Part shown: positions 1-7,164 of the stretch, in pieces
Numbering within the stretch: position 1 is the stretch's first letter
How the letters are laid out: each line of letters opens with the position of its first letter
NCBI GenBank assembly: GCA_009703635.1
Contig: WLFS01000023.1
Coordinates: 1-7,199, forward strand
From: Actinomycetota bacterium
GTDB taxonomy: Bacteria > Actinomycetota > Actinomycetes > Actinomycetales > Microbacteriaceae
Direction of reading: 5' to 3'
DNA: 7,199 nt
The notes under the pieces: model-generated
Told to the model about the DNA's origin: nothing
Databases searched by the model: none
Seen by the model: the letters and a program-made list of their open reading frames with translations, nothing else
Program-made: the position numbers and the translations under genes

Positions 1-83
1 CCAAGTAATACTGCCAGAGAAGCGTTTGATTCAATCGGCTCAGGATCTGGCTTAGCCTCAGATTCCTTCACTCGAAATTTCAT
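1..83 (-). CDS. Partial small protein coupled to serC, possibly DUF2530-like membrane protein (N-terminus only)
   Basis: Reading the minus strand, the serC stop TAA (85-83) shares its last base with an ATG (83-81), giving TAATG. An open frame then runs off the window edge for 27 complete codons. The visible peptide begins MKFRVKESEAKPDPEPIESN and continues ASLAVLL, so a charged, Pro/Glu-rich N-terminus passes into a hydrophobic stretch. A GCGGAG ribosome binding site lies inside the end of serC about 8 nt before the ATG. One-base overlap plus an internal SD indicates translational coupling in an operon with serC. The D-P-x-P-I-x-x-N pattern leading into a hydrophobic segment resembles the short actinobacterial DUF2530 membrane proteins, which I recall near serC in some genomes. 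That is a memory-based guess on few residues. The function is unknown and the C-terminus is outside the window. Confidence 0.6.
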   Translation of the reverse strand, partial: MKFRVKESEAKPDPEPIESNASLAVLL

Positions 84-1201
84 TAGCCAAGCTCCGCTAC
101 TACGTAATCGATGCAGGCAATTAGTGCCTGAATGTCAGCTTGGTCGGTCGAAGTGAAAGTTGCAACTCGAAGCTGGTTTCTTCCAAGCTTGCGATAAGGA
201 TCTACATCCACCACACCGTTAGCCCTAAGAACCTTAGCGATTTGGGCTGCGTCGATCGCCTCATCGAAATCGATTGTGACAACCACCTGGGAGCGGTGCT
301 TAGGGTTCGCAACAAAGGCGCTCGCAAAGCTAGTTGCATCAGCCCAGTCATACAAAAGCTTGGAAGATGCCTTAGTTTTGGCATCAGCCCAAGCCAAGCC
401 CCCGGATGAGTTAATCCATTTGATTTGCTCGTTTAGCAAAAATAGCGTTGAGATCGCTGGGGTGTTCAGGGTCTGATTCAACCTGGAGTTGTCAATTGCA
501 ATCTGCAGAGATAAGAACTCAGGGATGTAGCGATCGGTGCCAGCAATCTTGGCTGCGCGCTCCAAAGCTTTAGGGCTCATCAGAGCTAACCAAAGCCCAC
601 CGTCTGAACCAAAGTTTTTCTGTGGAGCGAAGTAGTAAACGTCCGTTTTCGATGCCTCGAAGTCGATTCCTCCAGCAGCCGAGGTGGCATCGGTCAAGAA
701 AATCGCATCCTGGTCCGCTCCGGCTACCTTTTCAACGGGAGCGACGACGCCAGTTGAGGTTTCGTTGTGCGGGTATACGTATGTATTGACGCCGGTTGTT
801 GCCGAAAGCTCAGACCTGGATCCAACCTCACCTTTTTTGATATCCACTGATCCCAGGAAGGGCGCTGAAAGGGCTTTGGCGAATTTGGCCCCGAACTCAC
901 CATGAACCAAAGCTTGAGAGTTGCCTTCAGCTAGGGAGTAAGCAGCCAGGTCCCAAAAGGCAGTTGAGCCACCATTTCCTAAAACGATTTCGTAGCCCTT
1001 TGGAGCCCTAAACAAATCAAGAAGTCCACTCTGGACCTCAGAAACCATGTCTTTTATGGGTTTTTGACGGTGAGAGGTGCCCATAAGCTTCGCCCCCGCC
1101 GAACCAAAGGCGGCCAGCTGTTCTGGGCGCAATATGGACGGCCCGCAGCCAAAACGGCCATCTTTAGGCAGTAAATTGCTGGGAATTAGGATTTCGGGCA
1201 T
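83..1201 (-). CDS. serC: Phosphoserine aminotransferase SerC, actinobacterial type
   Basis: This is a PLP-dependent class V aminotransferase of the cytoplasm. It converts 3-phosphohydroxypyruvate plus glutamate to O-phosphoserine, the second step of serine synthesis, and may also act in pyridoxine synthesis. From the ATG at 1201 it is 372 aa, normal for the actinobacterial SerC branch. Visible landmarks in that numbering are the N-terminal KDGRFGCGPS, LGNGGSTAFWD near 74-84, HNETSTGV near 145-152, TDATSAAGGID near 170-180, and FAPQKNFGSDGG, whose Lys (about 195) is the Schiff-base lysine. The frame stays open upstream to a GTG at 1243 (386 aa). I prefer 1201 because the family usually starts just before this K-P/D-G-R-F motif, neither start has a good SD, and a TAAACT hexamer lies 7 nt before the ATG, fitting a leaderless mRNA. 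The gene downstream overlaps it by one base. The gene is intact with no odd features. Confidence 0.95.
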   Translation of the reverse strand: MPEILIPSNLLPKDGRFGCGPSILRPEQLAAFGSAGAKLMGTSHRQKPIKDMVSEVQSGLLDLFRAPKGYEIVLGNGGSTAFWDLAAYSLAEGNSQALVHGEFGAKFAKALSAPFLGSVDIKKGEVGSRSELSATTGVNTYVYPHNETSTGVVAPVEKVAGADQDAIFLTDATSAAGGIDFEASKTDVYYFAPQKNFGSDGGLWLALMSPKALERAAKIAGTDRYIPEFLSLQIAIDNSRLNQTLNTPAISTLFLLNEQIKWINSSGGLAWADAKTKASSKLLYDWADATSFASAFVANPKHRSQVVVTIDFDEAIDAAQIAKVLRANGVVDVDPYRKLGRNQLRVATFTSTDQADIQALIACIDYVVAELG

Positions 1202-1208
1202 ACCGATG

Positions 1209-1214
1209 AGTTTA
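1209..1214 (-). promoter_or_regulatory. Putative -10 element of a leaderless serC promoter
   Basis: On the minus strand TAAACT (pattern TAnnnT) ends 7 nt before the serC ATG at 1201, so transcription would begin at or next to the A of the start codon. About 17 nt further upstream is TTATCG, a weak -35 (3 of 6 matches). There is no Shine-Dalgarno sequence between the hexamer and the ATG. Leaderless genes are common in Actinobacteria. The motif is short and can occur by chance, so the call is moderate. Confidence 0.4.
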
Positions 1215-1314
1215 GTAGCCTGCGAGTTTCCCGATAAGGGCACGTGGCGGGTTGCCCCCGAAATTCATGGGTTAGAATTGCCGAGCTGTCTAAATCAATC
1301 CATTTGGGCAGTCG

Positions 1315-2617: not shown

Positions 2618-3121
2618 ATGAGAACTCTAGTTCTAAATGCCGGCTACGAGCCGCTTGCCGTGGTCAGTTTCAAGCGGGCCATTATCTTGGTGCTCAATCA
2701 AAAAGCCACCGTCCTAGCCCAGGCTGGGGTGAGCGTGGTTAGAAGTGCCACCGGTGAATACAAGCTGCCTTCAGTTATCTTGCTTTCTCGCTACGTGCGA
2801 ATCCCAGGATCTCGGGTGATTCCGGTTTCTCGAAGGGGAGTGCTAAGGCGAGACGGGCACCGCTGCGGCTACTGCAAACGCTCCGCCTCAACGGTTGATC
2901 ACATCCAGCCTCGTTCAAGAGGCGGGGATGACTCGTGGGAAAACCTGGTTGCATGCTGCCTTCGCTGCAACAACAAAAAGGGCGATAAGACCTTAGGCGA
3001 GATGGGTTGGGCTCTGGATTTTGCACCAAAGATGCCAGCTGGAAATGTTTGGATGGTTCGGGGTGCGGAGCGATTTGAACCGGAGTGGAATGAGTACTTG
3101 GCATTTGCCAGTGCTGCTTAG
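2618..3121 (+). CDS. Orphan HNH endonuclease, actinobacterial family
   Basis: This is a 167-residue putative Zn-stabilised HNH (His-Me finger) nuclease. The frame is open upstream to 2567, but ATG 2618 is chosen because GAAAGGA (2604-2610) lies 7 nt before it and MRTLVLNAGYEPLAVVSFKR is the usual start of this family. Residues 1-70 form the conserved N-terminal part. The HNH region is about 74-123. Zn ligands are C83-x2-C86 and C114-x2-C117, the catalytic pair is D94-H95 in VDHIQPRSRGG, followed by N109 in WENL and N118 in CNNKKGDK. All nuclease residues are present, so the enzyme looks active. A tail of about 45 residues follows with aromatic and charged residues. No methyltransferase, intron, terminase or toxin partner is adjacent. 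The family is widespread in Actinobacteria as a stand-alone gene, and I know no established role. It converges on the tRNA-Arg gene 25 bp away. Confidence 0.88.
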   Translation: MRTLVLNAGYEPLAVVSFKRAIILVLNQKATVLAQAGVSVVRSATGEYKLPSVILLSRYVRIPGSRVIPVSRRGVLRRDGHRCGYCKRSASTVDHIQPRSRGGDDSWENLVACCLRCNNKKGDKTLGEMGWALDFAPKMPAGNVWMVRGAERFEPEWNEYLAFASAA

Positions 3122-3146
3122 CCCATTTAGCTAAAAAGAAAAAAAG

Positions 3147-3218
3147 TGACCCCGAGAAGAATCGAACTTCCGCACAAGGTTTAGGAAACCTCTGCTCTAT
3201 CCACTGAGCTACGGGGCC
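3147..3218 (-). tRNA. tRNA-Arg (anticodon CCT, reads AGG)
   Basis: The 72-nt minus-strand sequence folds as a full cloverleaf. Acceptor GGCCCCG pairs with CGGGGTC (one G-U). The D arm is GCTC/GAGC, the anticodon arm GAGGT/ACCTT has loop TTCCTAA, and the T arm GGAAG/CTTCT has loop TTCGATT. The discriminator base is A. Anticodon CCT identifies the tRNA for the rare arginine codon AGG. The 3' CCA is not encoded and must be added after transcription. T-rich sequence follows the 3' end (rc of 3132-3146, about TTTTTTT then TTTTT) and may help termination. No duplicated 3' end (attachment-site footprint) is seen elsewhere in the window. Confidence 0.97.
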
Positions 3219-3292: not shown

Positions 3293-6200
3293 ATGTCCGA
3301 ATCTCAAATCCCCGATCTAGCAATTGCTGGTGACAGCTTTGATTTGTGGCTTTCGGAAATCAAGCAGATCGGCTGCTCCGATCCACTCAGTCACTTTCGT
3401 GACAACTCTTACGGGCAGATAAATCTCGAACGAGCTCACCCAGGAGGACTTGCACAGTTCGTCACCGGGCGGCCAGCTTTGTTATCAAACCTGGTTCGCG
3501 ACCCGCTGTCATTTTCTAGGGCGCATTCAGCAGCCCGACGAATCAAGGCCAAGCAGGCCGCTTTGTCAGAGCACTTCGGGCTCGACACTTTGTATATGGC
3601 AAGCGGGCTAGTTGACCTTAGCGCCGATGGCAAAGAGCTTCGGATGCCTGTGCTGCTGTGGCCGGTAAACCTTGTGCGTAAGCATGATGATTTTGAACTG
3701 AGTCTTTCTCGAAAAGCCGTCGTAAATCCAGCCCTTGCCCCAGCACTATACGCAGCCTATGGCGTCAGGCTAAACAACGAGGATTTACTCTCCCATGTTC
3801 AAGTTGGCTCTGACCCGATTCCTATTCGAGTTCTCGATCACATAGCTGCTCTAACCGAATCGGCTGGCTCGCCTGAGCTTCGCCGGATTCTTGTAATTTC
3901 AAACTTCTCTTCAGCTGCCATCGAGCTGGCTGCCGATTTCAGAAGATCCGATAACCCAGTGCTAAAACTGCTCAGCGGAGATTTGATTGCCGATACTTCC
4001 AACCAGCTTGGCGTTGCCGATCCGATAGCCGTCACTGACTCCGACGCCACCCAAACCAAGATCGTTTCCCGCGCACTAGCTGGGGCCAGCTTTGCTGTTG
4101 AGACCCTGCCGGGTTGTGGATATACCCAGACTGTTGTACTTCTTATTGCAGCGCTTGCTCACCAAGGCAAAAGAGTCTTGGTACTCGCTCCTAGAAGACA
4201 AACCCTCAACGAACTTAGTGATCGGATGGCACAGATTGGCCTTCAAGGATTAGGCATCAGATCAAGTGCCACCTGGATGGACATGATTGGTGCCATTTCC
4301 CGAAACGAGAAAGCAAAGCCCGCCAACTACTCATCTCTTGCAACCCTCCGGGATAGCTCAAGAGAGCAAGTCTCAAATTACTTCGCTTCTTTTTCTAAAG
4401 TTGATGGTGAGCTAGGGGTAAGTATCGAGCAGGCTCTCGAGCAACTCTCGAGGCTAGCTGCTAGCCGCAAGCCACCGATAAACGAAGCTCGAATCGATGC
4501 CGATCAGCTCGGAAGACACCGGGATCTAACCTTTGCTCTGACACTGCTTCGCCAAGCTTCCGAACTGGGAGAGTTTGAGATTGGCCCTGAGGACTCCAGT
4601 TGGTTTAGGGCAAGATTTGAAAACCCCCAGGAAATTCCAGCTCGAATTGCCCTAGCCAAAGCTTTGCACCAGGGAAGCTTCCAGGAGTTGTCTGACCAGC
4701 TAGCGCAGTTTACAAAGACAGTCGAATTTGTTCCAGCGAGAAGCGTTACAGACTGGCTGAGCTATCTGGAGCTGTTTGTTGGGGTTCGAGACACCCTGGA
4801 TAAGTTCAAGCCAGAGGTGTTTGATCGCCCACTAACCGAACTGATTTTCGCCACCGCCCCTAGAAAAGACAAGTCAGTGATGAGCGGTGCCAACCGTCGT
4901 CGCCTGAAAAAACTTGCCAAGGAATACTTGCGTCCTGGAATGCACGTAGCGGACATGCACCTAGCCCTAAAGGAAATCCAATCCCAGCGCGATATCTGGG
5001 CAAGGCACTGTCTGGTTGCCAAAGCCCCTCAGGTTCCACTCGGTATTGCTCAGGCTCAAAACGCAGCCAATACCTTCTTTGAAGAGCTCAAGGTGCTGCA
5101 GCTTCACTTAGATTCCGAATCAGTCAACCCAGGTCTTGTCGACCAGCCGCTAGATGAATTGCGCAGTATTCTCCGATCACTTGCCGAAGACACTTCGATA
5201 TTGGATAACTATCCAGAGCGCGCGATGACCCAATCTCGTTTGGACGAGGCCGGTCTTGGACAGCTCTCGGTGGAGCTAACCAAGCTTCACACCACCAAAG
5301 ATGCACTTCAGTCCGAGCTCGAACTGGCTTGGTGGAAATCAGCTCTCGAGACTCTATTGCAAAGATCAGGTAGCTCTCTTGCTGGAGACCACAATCAAGT
5401 GGTTGCTAACGAGCAAAGATTCTCCCAGTCGGAAAAAGACCTGATTCGCGAGGGCGCGAAGACCGTGGCATTTGAACTTGCCACCTCTTGGAAAAATTCC
5501 CTTGAGATATTCCCGACTGAGGCACAAACCCTAAAGGAGCTACTCAAGCTCAAGCGTGCGGTGTTGTCAGAAGTTCAGGCACTGGCTCCAAATGTTTATA
5601 AGGCACTTGCGCCAGTTGTGATGTGCTCGCCATACGAAGTTCCAACTGTTCTGTCTCGCAGCGACAGCTTTGATGTGGCGATAGTGCTCGATGGAGCCGG
5701 GTCTTCTATTGCCGAAAACTACAGCGGTTTAGCAAGAGCCAGCCAGGCAATCATATTTGGCGATGACGCGATTGCTGCAGCTACCGGCTTCAATCTGGAG
5801 TGCCTGCCTGATGAATCCATCGAGCGGGTACTTCCCGAGTCGATTTTCACGGCTGCTAGAACTGTCATGCCAGTTGAGGTTCTCAAAAGAAGCTACCGCT
5901 CTAGCGGGCAGGTGCTGGGGGATTACATCAACTCAGAGTTCTACGGCGACCGAATAATCTTTGAGCCATCCAAAGATTCCTACTTTGGTCGATCCAACGC
6001 TGTTCTGGTAAAAGTAGCTGCGGCAAAAGCGGCGGAACCTGAGAGCTTAGATGCTGAGGTGGCGCAAGTAATTGATTTGATCTTTAGCCACGCCACTTGG
6101 AGCCCACAGGATTCCTTGCTGGTTGCAACTGCCAGCCAAAAGCATGCGGAGCGTTTAGATCAGGCCCTGCAAGCTGGCATGAGAGACAAGGCTCACTTGG

Positions 6201-6943
6201 CTGAGTTTTTCGAAGGCCATGGCCGCGAGAAATTTGAAATCACAACCATTCAGGATCTGGCTCACCGTATTGCCGATCGGGTGATTTTCTCAGTTGGCTT
6301 CGGCAAGGGCTCATCAGGGTCTGCGCCTAAATCACTAGGACTTATTTCTCATCGCGACGGCAATCGCTACCTAGCAAACTGCTTGGTCTCGGCACGAAAG
6401 CACCTGACCGCGGTCAGCGCTCTAGAGCCAGTGGACCTGGTTGACCCAAGCATTATCGGCTCAGATGTGTTGAGGGAAATGCTAAGTGAGATTTCCAAGC
6501 CAACCCGAAAAGCCGTAGAGGCCGATGTGAATCCAATGATTGCTGATTTGGCCATTCGATTGACCAAGTTTGGGGTCACCACTCGAACCAACTTCTCCTC
6601 AAGGCTCAAGCTGGTTGCCTCGGTGGGAGAAAAAGCTGCTGTAGTCGAACCGGACTGGGGTTTGTTGGGCTACAACCTTTCCGAGCGGCACAGGCTGCGT
6701 CCCATGATGCTTGAATCCCTTGGTTGGGAATACATAAGAGTTCCGAGCTTTGAATTATTCGCTGACCCGGAGCTTGTGGCACAGCGCATTGCCATCGCCT
6801 TAGGTATTGAAGTTAGTAAGAAGCCACAGCCGCTTTTTGAAATGGAGCCAAGGGCTTTTGAGGATACCCACTCTGCTTGGGGCGATCCGGTTGATTCAAA
6901 CGACCAGCGGCTACGTGAAGACAAACCGCCTCACTGGGCTTAG
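3293..6943 (+). CDS. Large DUF4011-SF1 helicase-Vsr-like protein with degenerate ATPase motifs (pseudo-helicase)
   Basis: 1216 residues in one intact frame. Residues about 15-160 resemble DUF4011: DPLSHFRDN, then LDTLYMASGLVDL and LRMPVLLWPVNLVRK. An SF1 (Upf1/Dna2-like) helicase core follows, split by a largely helical insert of about 400 residues (340-760). Motifs: I = LPGCGYTQT (272-280) with Tyr277 where Lys is expected; Ia = VLVLAPRRQTLNEL (296-308); II = VAIVLDGAG (795-803) with Asp800 kept but Glu replaced by Gly801; III = FGDDAIA (822-828) without Gln; IV = LKRSYRSSGQ (864-873), retained; V = TIQDLAHRIADRVIFS (985-1000), Gly lost; VI = GNRYLANCLVSARKH (1023-1037) with Ser1033 where the Arg finger is expected. 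The C-terminus (about 1115-1172: VVEPDWGLLGYN, then LSERHRLRPMMLESLGWEYIRV) resembles the Vsr/DUF559-like nuclease fold that ends such proteins; the usual Tyr-His is Tyr-Asn. I recall this architecture among phage-defence genes (Hhe type). ATP hydrolysis looks unlikely here, so a scaffold, DNA-binding or purely nucleolytic role is inferred. Confidence 0.8.
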   Translation: MSESQIPDLAIAGDSFDLWLSEIKQIGCSDPLSHFRDNSYGQINLERAHPGGLAQFVTGRPALLSNLVRDPLSFSRAHSAARRIKAKQAALSEHFGLDTLYMASGLVDLSADGKELRMPVLLWPVNLVRKHDDFELSLSRKAVVNPALAPALYAAYGVRLNNEDLLSHVQVGSDPIPIRVLDHIAALTESAGSPELRRILVISNFSSAAIELAADFRRSDNPVLKLLSGDLIADTSNQLGVADPIAVTDSDATQTKIVSRALAGASFAVETLPGCGYTQTVVLLIAALAHQGKRVLVLAPRRQTLNELSDRMAQIGLQGLGIRSSATWMDMIGAISRNEKAKPANYSSLATLRDSSREQVSNYFASFSKVDGELGVSIEQALEQLSRLAASRKPPINEARIDADQLGRHRDLTFALTLLRQASELGEFEIGPEDSSWFRARFENPQEIPARIALAKALHQGSFQELSDQLAQFTKTVEFVPARSVTDWLSYLELFVGVRDTLDKFKPEVFDRPLTELIFATAPRKDKSVMSGANRRRLKKLAKEYLRPGMHVADMHLALKEIQSQRDIWARHCLVAKAPQVPLGIAQAQNAANTFFEELKVLQLHLDSESVNPGLVDQPLDELRSILRSLAEDTSILDNYPERAMTQSRLDEAGLGQLSVELTKLHTTKDALQSELELAWWKSALETLLQRSGSSLAGDHNQVVANEQRFSQSEKDLIREGAKTVAFELATSWKNSLEIFPTEAQTLKELLKLKRAVLSEVQALAPNVYKALAPVVMCSPYEVPTVLSRSDSFDVAIVLDGAGSSIAENYSGLARASQAIIFGDDAIAAATGFNLECLPDESIERVLPESIFTAARTVMPVEVLKRSYRSSGQVLGDYINSEFYGDRIIFEPSKDSYFGRSNAVLVKVAAAKAAEPESLDAEVAQVIDLIFSHATWSPQDSLLVATASQKHAERLDQALQAGMRDKAHLAEFFEGHGREKFEITTIQDLAHRIADRVIFSVGFGKGSSGSAPKSLGLISHRDGNRYLANCLVSARKHLTAVSALEPVDLVDPSIIGSDVLREMLSEISKPTRKAVEADVNPMIADLAIRLTKFGVTTRTNFSSRLKLVASVGEKAAVVEPDWGLLGYNLSERHRLRPMMLESLGWEYIRVPSFELFADPELVAQRIAIALGIEVSKKPQPLFEMEPRAFEDTHSAWGDPVDSNDQRLREDKPPHWA

Positions 6944-7164
6944 TCCGAAGATTTAGGAGGGGAGGGCTTTGACCCCTTGGTGCCTGAGTCTCTCGAATCA
7001 GTTCTGTAAAAACCGGTGCCCTTAAAGCTCACACCCAACTGTCCAAACACTTTTCTCAGTTGACCGCCACACTCTGGGCAGAGCGTTTCCTGCTCTGCCG
7101 AGAACTCTTGCCAAATATCAAAGCTGTGTTCGCAAGCCTTGCAAACGTAGCTGTAGGTAGGCAT
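6940..7164 (-). CDS. FmdB-family zinc-ribbon protein
   Basis: The 74-residue protein begins MPTYSYVCKACEHSFDIWQE, the typical FmdB/CxxC_CXXC_SSSS start. Zinc ligands are C8-x2-C11 and C29-x2-C32 (CPECGG), followed by LRKVFGQLGVSFKGTGFYRTDSR and a short Ser/Pro/Lys-rich tail. It is named after a putative regulator of formamidase/amidase genes, but the function of the actinobacterial members is not established. The ATG at 7164 matches the family start; the upstream GAAAGAA is only a weak ribosome binding site. Its TAA (6942-6940) overlaps the TAG of the convergent large gene (6941-6943), and no terminator separates the two. Confidence 0.9.
   Translation of the reverse strand: MPTYSYVCKACEHSFDIWQEFSAEQETLCPECGGQLRKVFGQLGVSFKGTGFYRTDSRDSGTKGSKPSPPKSSD

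Follow-up and report, generated by a model that had tools for sequence, protein, structure and literature searches.

RecC holds dead helicase domains, and the helicases UPF1, IGHMBP2 and Dna2 are active ATPases. In RecC and AddB, a nuclease-like or helicase-like domain is reported to be able to thread or recognise DNA without catalysis (PMC1185551, PMC4824097). A further group, the Hhe, ProA and PDC-S37 types of defence protein, combines DUF4011 with a helicase–restriction endonuclease (REase) arrangement. Here we describe a protein of 1216 residues encoded on contig WLFS01000023.1 (assembly GCA_009703635.1, Microbacteriaceae); the whole 7,199-nucleotide stretch is referred to as the window. 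Like RecC and AddB, as those reports describe them, the window protein has the shell of a helicase and nuclease but not the catalytic residues; unlike them, it has a UPF1-like fold and a DUF4011 N-terminus, and the likeness is one of analogy. UPF1, IGHMBP2 and Dna2 are its closest counterparts in fold, but the window protein has no ATPase residues. It shares partial, significant matches to the helicase part and its overall arrangement with Hhe, ProA and PDC-S37, but is shorter than Hhe and ProA (profiles of 1797 and 1903 positions), has lost the ATPase motifs and is near-universal. The catalytic ATPase residues are gone from a protein that is under selection and found in almost all sampled genomes of its family and order. 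On our best reading, it belongs to the order's core proteins, has been inherited vertically and descends from a DUF4011–superfamily 1 (SF1) helicase–PD-(D/E)xK enzyme.

An active SF1 helicase has a Walker A Lys, a Walker B Asp-Glu pair, a motif III Gln and a motif VI Arg. In their place the window protein has Tyr277, Leu799-Asp800, Ile827 and Ser1033, within a frame that is free of stops and frameshifts. These losses had largely been foreseen in an original prediction made from the DNA alone. Walker A reads P273-G-C-G-Y277-T-Q-T, as predicted. The motif III Gln is present in 10 of 11 active-looking orthologues from the order, the QGDERD of motif V, whose degeneration had also been claimed, in nine of the 11, and motif VI reads VSAR rather than TRAR; motif IV is retained, again as predicted. 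For Walker B the degeneracy stands, but the proposed replacement of Glu by Gly801 is off by one. Residues 793–812 align without gaps to active relatives, so that Leu799 occupies the Asp slot and Asp800 the Glu slot.

The losses extend well beyond the window. Our homologue search returned 1081 proteins; among the 120 listed, identity is 48–95% and 113 exceed 1150 residues. An alignment centred on the family comprises 134 rows (the window, 20 loci from a scan of named genomes and 113 proteins). The original prediction had asked whether Tyr277 and Ser1033 are conserved. Position 277 is Tyr in 119 rows, Ala in nine, Ser in three and Gly and Phe in one each, with one gap; hence, none of the 133 assessable rows has the Lys. 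Asp800 is Asp in all 133. Position 1033 is Ser in 121 rows, Arg in 10 and Gly in one, with two gaps. Ser is nevertheless no general mark: it is found in Rhodoluna-like rows and in L013, and the motif VI Arg has been lost in various ways in 26 of 68 other dead rows from the order. A 95% identity cluster (P0001) covers 243 member sequences, which rules out an oddity or sequencing artefact confined to the window.

Outside Microbacteriaceae we compared 80 loci from the order, hand-picked from the best matches listed, with weaker matches unsampled; their placement outside the family rests on scores and the tree. L157, with a frame shorter than 900 residues, was dropped, and L155 has no Walker A column. 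Both the Walker A Lys and the Walker B Asp-Glu are retained in 11 of the remaining 79 rows, L155 being unscored, which puts the Lys in 11 of 78 assessable rows. The other 67 rows have Ala (19), Gln (12), Val (11), Pro (5), Thr (5), Leu (4), Arg (4), Ser (2), Gly (2), Asn (1), Asp (1) or Ile (1) in the Lys slot.

The distribution is housekeeping-like, with near-universal presence in the sample. With matches counted per genome at E <= 1e-3, and with the family and order groups centred on genome G001 (that of locus L014, Amnibacterium kyonggiense), the protein has a match in 247/249 family genomes and 292/297 genomes of the order, which we take to be Actinomycetales in GTDB. Across the class there is a match in 83/197 genomes, 33 of these at E < 1e-100, and across the phylum in 25/149; many of the weak matches at these two levels are short stretches of other helicases. 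An Amnibacterium-like orthologue is also present on a contig from an Acidobacteria metagenome-assembled genome (L011, JABBOB010000065.1), which is probably misbinned.

The original prediction was right that selection has kept an intact protein although its ATPase residues are lost. Against L001, a 94% identical orthologue, the ratio of nonsynonymous to synonymous substitution rates (dN/dS) is 0.063, and every part is constrained: 0.030 for the N-terminus, 0.047 and 0.055 for the first and second helicase parts, 0.085 for the insert between them, 0.038 for the nuclease-like part and 0.024 for the tail. For the more distant pairings, with L002 and L003, synonymous changes are mostly saturated. 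The original prediction placed the ATPase loss in a single lineage. The loss is real; its restriction to one lineage is not, because it is common to a clade of 76 rows, which spans the sample of the order, and recurs outside that clade. In a quick LG+G4 tree of 109 rows, from which the motif columns were removed and L155 and L161 excluded, this clade unites the 13 family rows with 63 other dead ones (Shimodaira–Hasegawa-like approximate likelihood ratio test, SH-aLRT, 100). The 11 active rows cluster with three dead rows, L140, L153 and L158 (SH-aLRT 99), and ten dead rows from the class, with Lys changed to Arg, form a separate clade (SH-aLRT 95). The tree requires four changes of state, of which three are forced by well-supported branches.

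The active-looking orthologues share much else with the window protein. They differ in retaining GKSQT and DEAS, but they lie at the same locus and have the same signatures in the N-terminus (H49–R69) and the basic insert (RRRLKKLAREYLRPG...D.H). Three loci on the active-looking side, L063, L066 and L068, also have a zinc-ribbon neighbour and a PPHW sequence, as does the window. The protein at L066 is 100% identical to one of Phycicoccus sp. Soil802, and its named relatives are from Pedococcus, Nostocoides and Oryzihumus. Of the 120 proteins listed for L066, ranked by likeness to this active query, 119 hold both GxGK[ST] and DEAS. The two signatures are mostly missing from generic DUF4011 rows, and the ten dead rows from the class keep only part of them. 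In 40-residue bins, conservation around Walker B and motif III is lower in 17 dead rows than in eight active-looking rows, whereas that of residues 41–80 and 481–560 is higher; the 521–560 bin is the best-conserved part of the insert in the dead rows. Since active and dead orthologues share signatures and neighbours, specialisation for a non-catalytic role probably preceded the loss of catalysis. The ancestor may have been a defence gene, in keeping with the domestication that the original prediction proposed. The dead majority and the active-looking orthologues together offer a natural contrast for studying helicase function without ATP.

In the AlphaFold model the RecA-like domains superpose on those of UPF1 and IGHMBP2, as in SF1B helicases, and the overall fold resembles UPF1, IGHMBP2 and Dna2 at 13–17% sequence identity over the aligned parts. 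Both ten-residue blocks that contain the degenerate P-loop have a predicted local distance difference test (pLDDT) score of 93–95, which argues against a genuine P-loop elsewhere in the protein; we rejected that possibility on the fold and these scores. AddAB (4cej_A) appears at Foldseek rank 50 (E 2.8e-6), behind many other SF1 proteins, and a sequence search of solved structures found no relative, the sole match being a chance-level O-methyltransferase (E 0.97). Pfam recognises DUF4011 (PF13195, 26.4 bits against a gathering score of 22.2); the matches to AAA_11 and to the MTES_1575 nuclease are both below cut-off.

The original prediction had missed the kinship of the C-terminal tail with a widespread separate microprotein, which is a second lead. 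In most other family loci, the sequence that matches residues 1177–1216 is encoded downstream in a frame of its own; the consensus is near WGD....ND.RL..DRPPHW. Counted over 47 distinct family-centred loci, it has a separate frame in 34 (on the same strand and no more than 1.5 kb away), is fused in 10, and in the remaining three the contig stops within 66 bases. In L008, L014, L019 and other family loci the separate frame starts inside or just past the big gene, in another reading frame; such overlap may reflect translational coupling. Elsewhere in the order, we accepted a PPHW sequence in 17 of the 20 loci L058–L077, L067 on its pattern and the other 16 on a profile match. L062 has a doubtful match with 57 residues beyond it, neither profile nor pattern found one at L064 or L075, and the frame at L074 is on the opposite strand. 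In 60 further order loci the sequence is fused in six, separate in 17 and absent from 37, short flanks making absence uninformative, and it is present in 9/11 class loci. Fusion requires at least eight changes on the tree, with six rows unscored, and occurs in several clades.

The separate microprotein is unannotated, has about 45–70 residues and carries PPHW at or near its C-terminus. It is found in 143/197 class genomes at E <= 0.05, a per-genome threshold that admits some chance matches, and in 112/197 at 1e-3. Four separate copies and the window tail have no Pfam match, four copies have no NCBIfam match, and a homologue search with a 45-residue copy recovered a single protein, the one in Phytoactinopolyspora mesophila from which the copy was taken. 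A convergent zinc-ribbon gene lies downstream of the big gene in 15/20 order loci (L058–L077) and 8/11 class loci (L078–L088), and in none of eight long DUF4011 outgroup loci, a weak control given their short flanks. It also lies near the microprotein in 9/16 loci from genomes without a full-length big protein. Ruc (Rv0991c) is reported to be a redox chaperone (PMC7448276). In the window, the zinc-ribbon gene is convergent with the big gene and overlaps its end. We take its product to be of the FmdB type, a family that presumably includes Ruc.

What is the function of a helicase that has lost its motor? We propose a core double pseudoenzyme, analogous to RecC, that would act as an ATP-independent nucleic-acid-binding scaffold presenting its PPHW tail, a proposal in which we place about half of our belief. 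The dead helicase/nuclease shell would bind nucleic acid without ATP, as RecC and AddB do; the N-terminal HPSG..R.TRLS segment and the basic insert would provide the surface for binding; and a partner protein would be recruited by the disordered tail, which has PPHW at or near its end. The loss of catalytic residues, the retained predicted fold, purifying selection, the distribution and the kinship of the tail are observations, whereas we infer scaffolding, binding and recruitment. The AlphaFold model, of low confidence in this region, shows the tail undocked from the body, which counts neither for nor against binding, and no gene for a RecB/AddA-like partner was found within the window. A more tentative extension, which we think rather unlikely, is an order-wide housekeeping complex for nucleic-acid surveillance, of a kind that our literature searches did not turn up, in which the RecC-like dead shell forms the body and the PPHW microprotein, found across the class, recruits other components. 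Catalysis would then have become dispensable early, which would explain its three or four losses on the tree while shell, neighbourhood and tail were mostly kept.

Several observations weigh against the scaffold. Two of the 249 family genomes and five of the 297 order genomes have no match, and the gene is split at L016. The retention of Asp824, Arg1035 and Asp800 leaves room for nucleotide binding without hydrolysis, and an Asp1121 that is invariant in 79 dead rows, together with the Glu1119 kept here, for some metal binding or nuclease activity. The microprotein is far commoner than the big protein, which points to an independent role, and fusion of adjacent genes on one strand can be neutral. 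The tree is quick and carries long-branch warnings, and its changes could in principle include gains. The binding and partner roles are themselves predicted ones.

An alternative explanation is that the protein is a sensor that binds ATP without hydrolysing it, its conformation being set by the nucleotide in the site. G274, G276 and Q279 are retained in 133/133 assessable family-centred rows, and Asp824 and Arg1035 in 100% and 97% of the 79 dead rows compared. We nonetheless regard a sensor as unlikely: Lys is replaced by Tyr, Ala, Ser, Gly or Phe in these rows, and some relatives in the order, for example L069, L074 and L075, no longer have a recognisable P-loop.

A defence protein of the Hhe, ProA or PDC-S37 type that can still sense or block phage with no need to hydrolyse ATP is quite unlikely. 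PADLOC models for PDC-S37 (E 5.4e-62) and Hhe (E 1.4e-18) match the window protein, and both also match all five orthologues tested (L010, L059, L066, L072 and L078); these matches speak for kinship with defence proteins. Membership of Hhe, as originally suggested, is not borne out: the protein scores 91.2 bits where the Hhe model (NF042953) has its cut-off at 2000, and none of 150 family genomes exceeds that cut-off. For ProA (NF058533) the score is 166.2 bits against 1500. We rejected filing under either name, since the curated cut-offs are missed so widely. The ATPase residues are gone, and the near-universal presence with recurring neighbours differs from the patchy occurrence of long Hhe-like DUF4011 proteins, which we found in 12/150 family genomes (>130 bits, frames >1300 residues), a count that may be low because two candidates were scored per genome. 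Distribution and locus thus argue against an anti-phage role. A different DUF4011 gene is reported to flank a defence hotspot in Pseudomonas aeruginosa, where it is conserved in every isolate examined (PMC10250203); DUF4011 proteins may therefore be core genes elsewhere too. Automated defence surveys may score this widespread core protein as a defence candidate. Our searches for literature on pseudohelicases, anti-phage ProA/Hhe, PDC-S37 and Microbacteriaceae core helicases returned nothing on it, nor did we find it treated in the portions we could consult of papers mentioning DUF4011. It is thus a large, near-universal protein of the order with no described function in the searchable literature.

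The ATP-independent nuclease proposed in the original prediction is improbable and has been weakened by our analysis. The C-terminal domain has the predicted order helix, three strands, helix, strand and two helices, a part scarcely covered by the fold comparison. Active relatives in the order have ID, ExDG and RDRDR or RERDR in the site; the window protein has Lys1106 for the strand-1 Asp and has lost the RDRDR Asp, and its Pfam score is 19.5 bits against a cut-off of 38.2. What remains in favour is Glu1119, with the invariant Asp1121, and some order relatives hold more of the site, L058 and L059 retaining ID and ExDG. Simple decay, in which a former helicase is turning into a pseudogene, could account for the varied ways in which order members have lost catalytic motifs and for the split copy at L016, but is very improbable and was rejected on dN/dS and distribution, given long open frames across the order sample, matches in 247/249 family genomes, constraint on all regions and invariant non-catalytic motifs.

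Table. Coordinates of the features discussed, in the window unless a locus is given.
Feature	Position	Strand	Remarks
Class-V aminotransferase gene	83-1243	-	First gene in window
NlpC/P60 gene	1419-2324	+	
HNH endonuclease gene	2618-3121	+	Start codon picked by eye; upstream of 1216-residue frame
tRNA-Arg (CCT)	3146-3218	-	
Core DUF4011-helicase-REase-like pseudoenzyme	3293-6943	+	1216 residues
N-terminal signature H49-R69	3437-3499	+	Order consensus near HPSGLAQLLAGRxTRLSxLVR
Pfam DUF4011 match, residues 75-149	3515-3739	+	Exceeds gathering score
Degenerate Walker A	4109-4132	+	PGCGYTQT; Tyr277 in Lys slot
Conserved basic insert, residues 530-566	4880-4990	+	
Degenerate Walker B	5669-5701	+	Leu799-Asp800 vs Asp-Glu in active orthologues
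Motif III	5759-5782	+	G823-D824 retained, Gln gone
Motif IV	5888-5911	+	RSYRSSGQ; Tyr868-Arg869 retained
Motif V region	6260-6304	+	AHRIAD instead of QGDERD
Motif VI	6377-6400	+	Ser1033 in Arg slot, Arg1035 retained
C-terminal PD-(D/E)xK/Vsr-like (MTES_1575-like) domain	6473-6805	+	Catalytic residues partly gone; Pfam match weak, below cut-off
C-terminal tail, residues 1177-1216	6821-6940	+	Related to separate PPHW microprotein; mostly predicted disordered
Zinc-ribbon protein gene	6940-7164	-	Pfam Zn_ribbon_8; convergent, overlaps end of 1216-residue frame
Separate PPHW microprotein, example	L079:12604-12738		
Separate PPHW microprotein, example	L095:7354-7485		
Separate PPHW microprotein, example	L078:9101-9238		

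The split copy at L016 belongs to Arenivirga flava (L016:5776-9620), where the gene is divided over two frames by a frameshift or a sequencing error. Among the other genes of the window, the aminotransferase is presumably SerC-like, and an HNH endonuclease gene is also found upstream at L001–L006, L017, L033, L034, L049 and L067.

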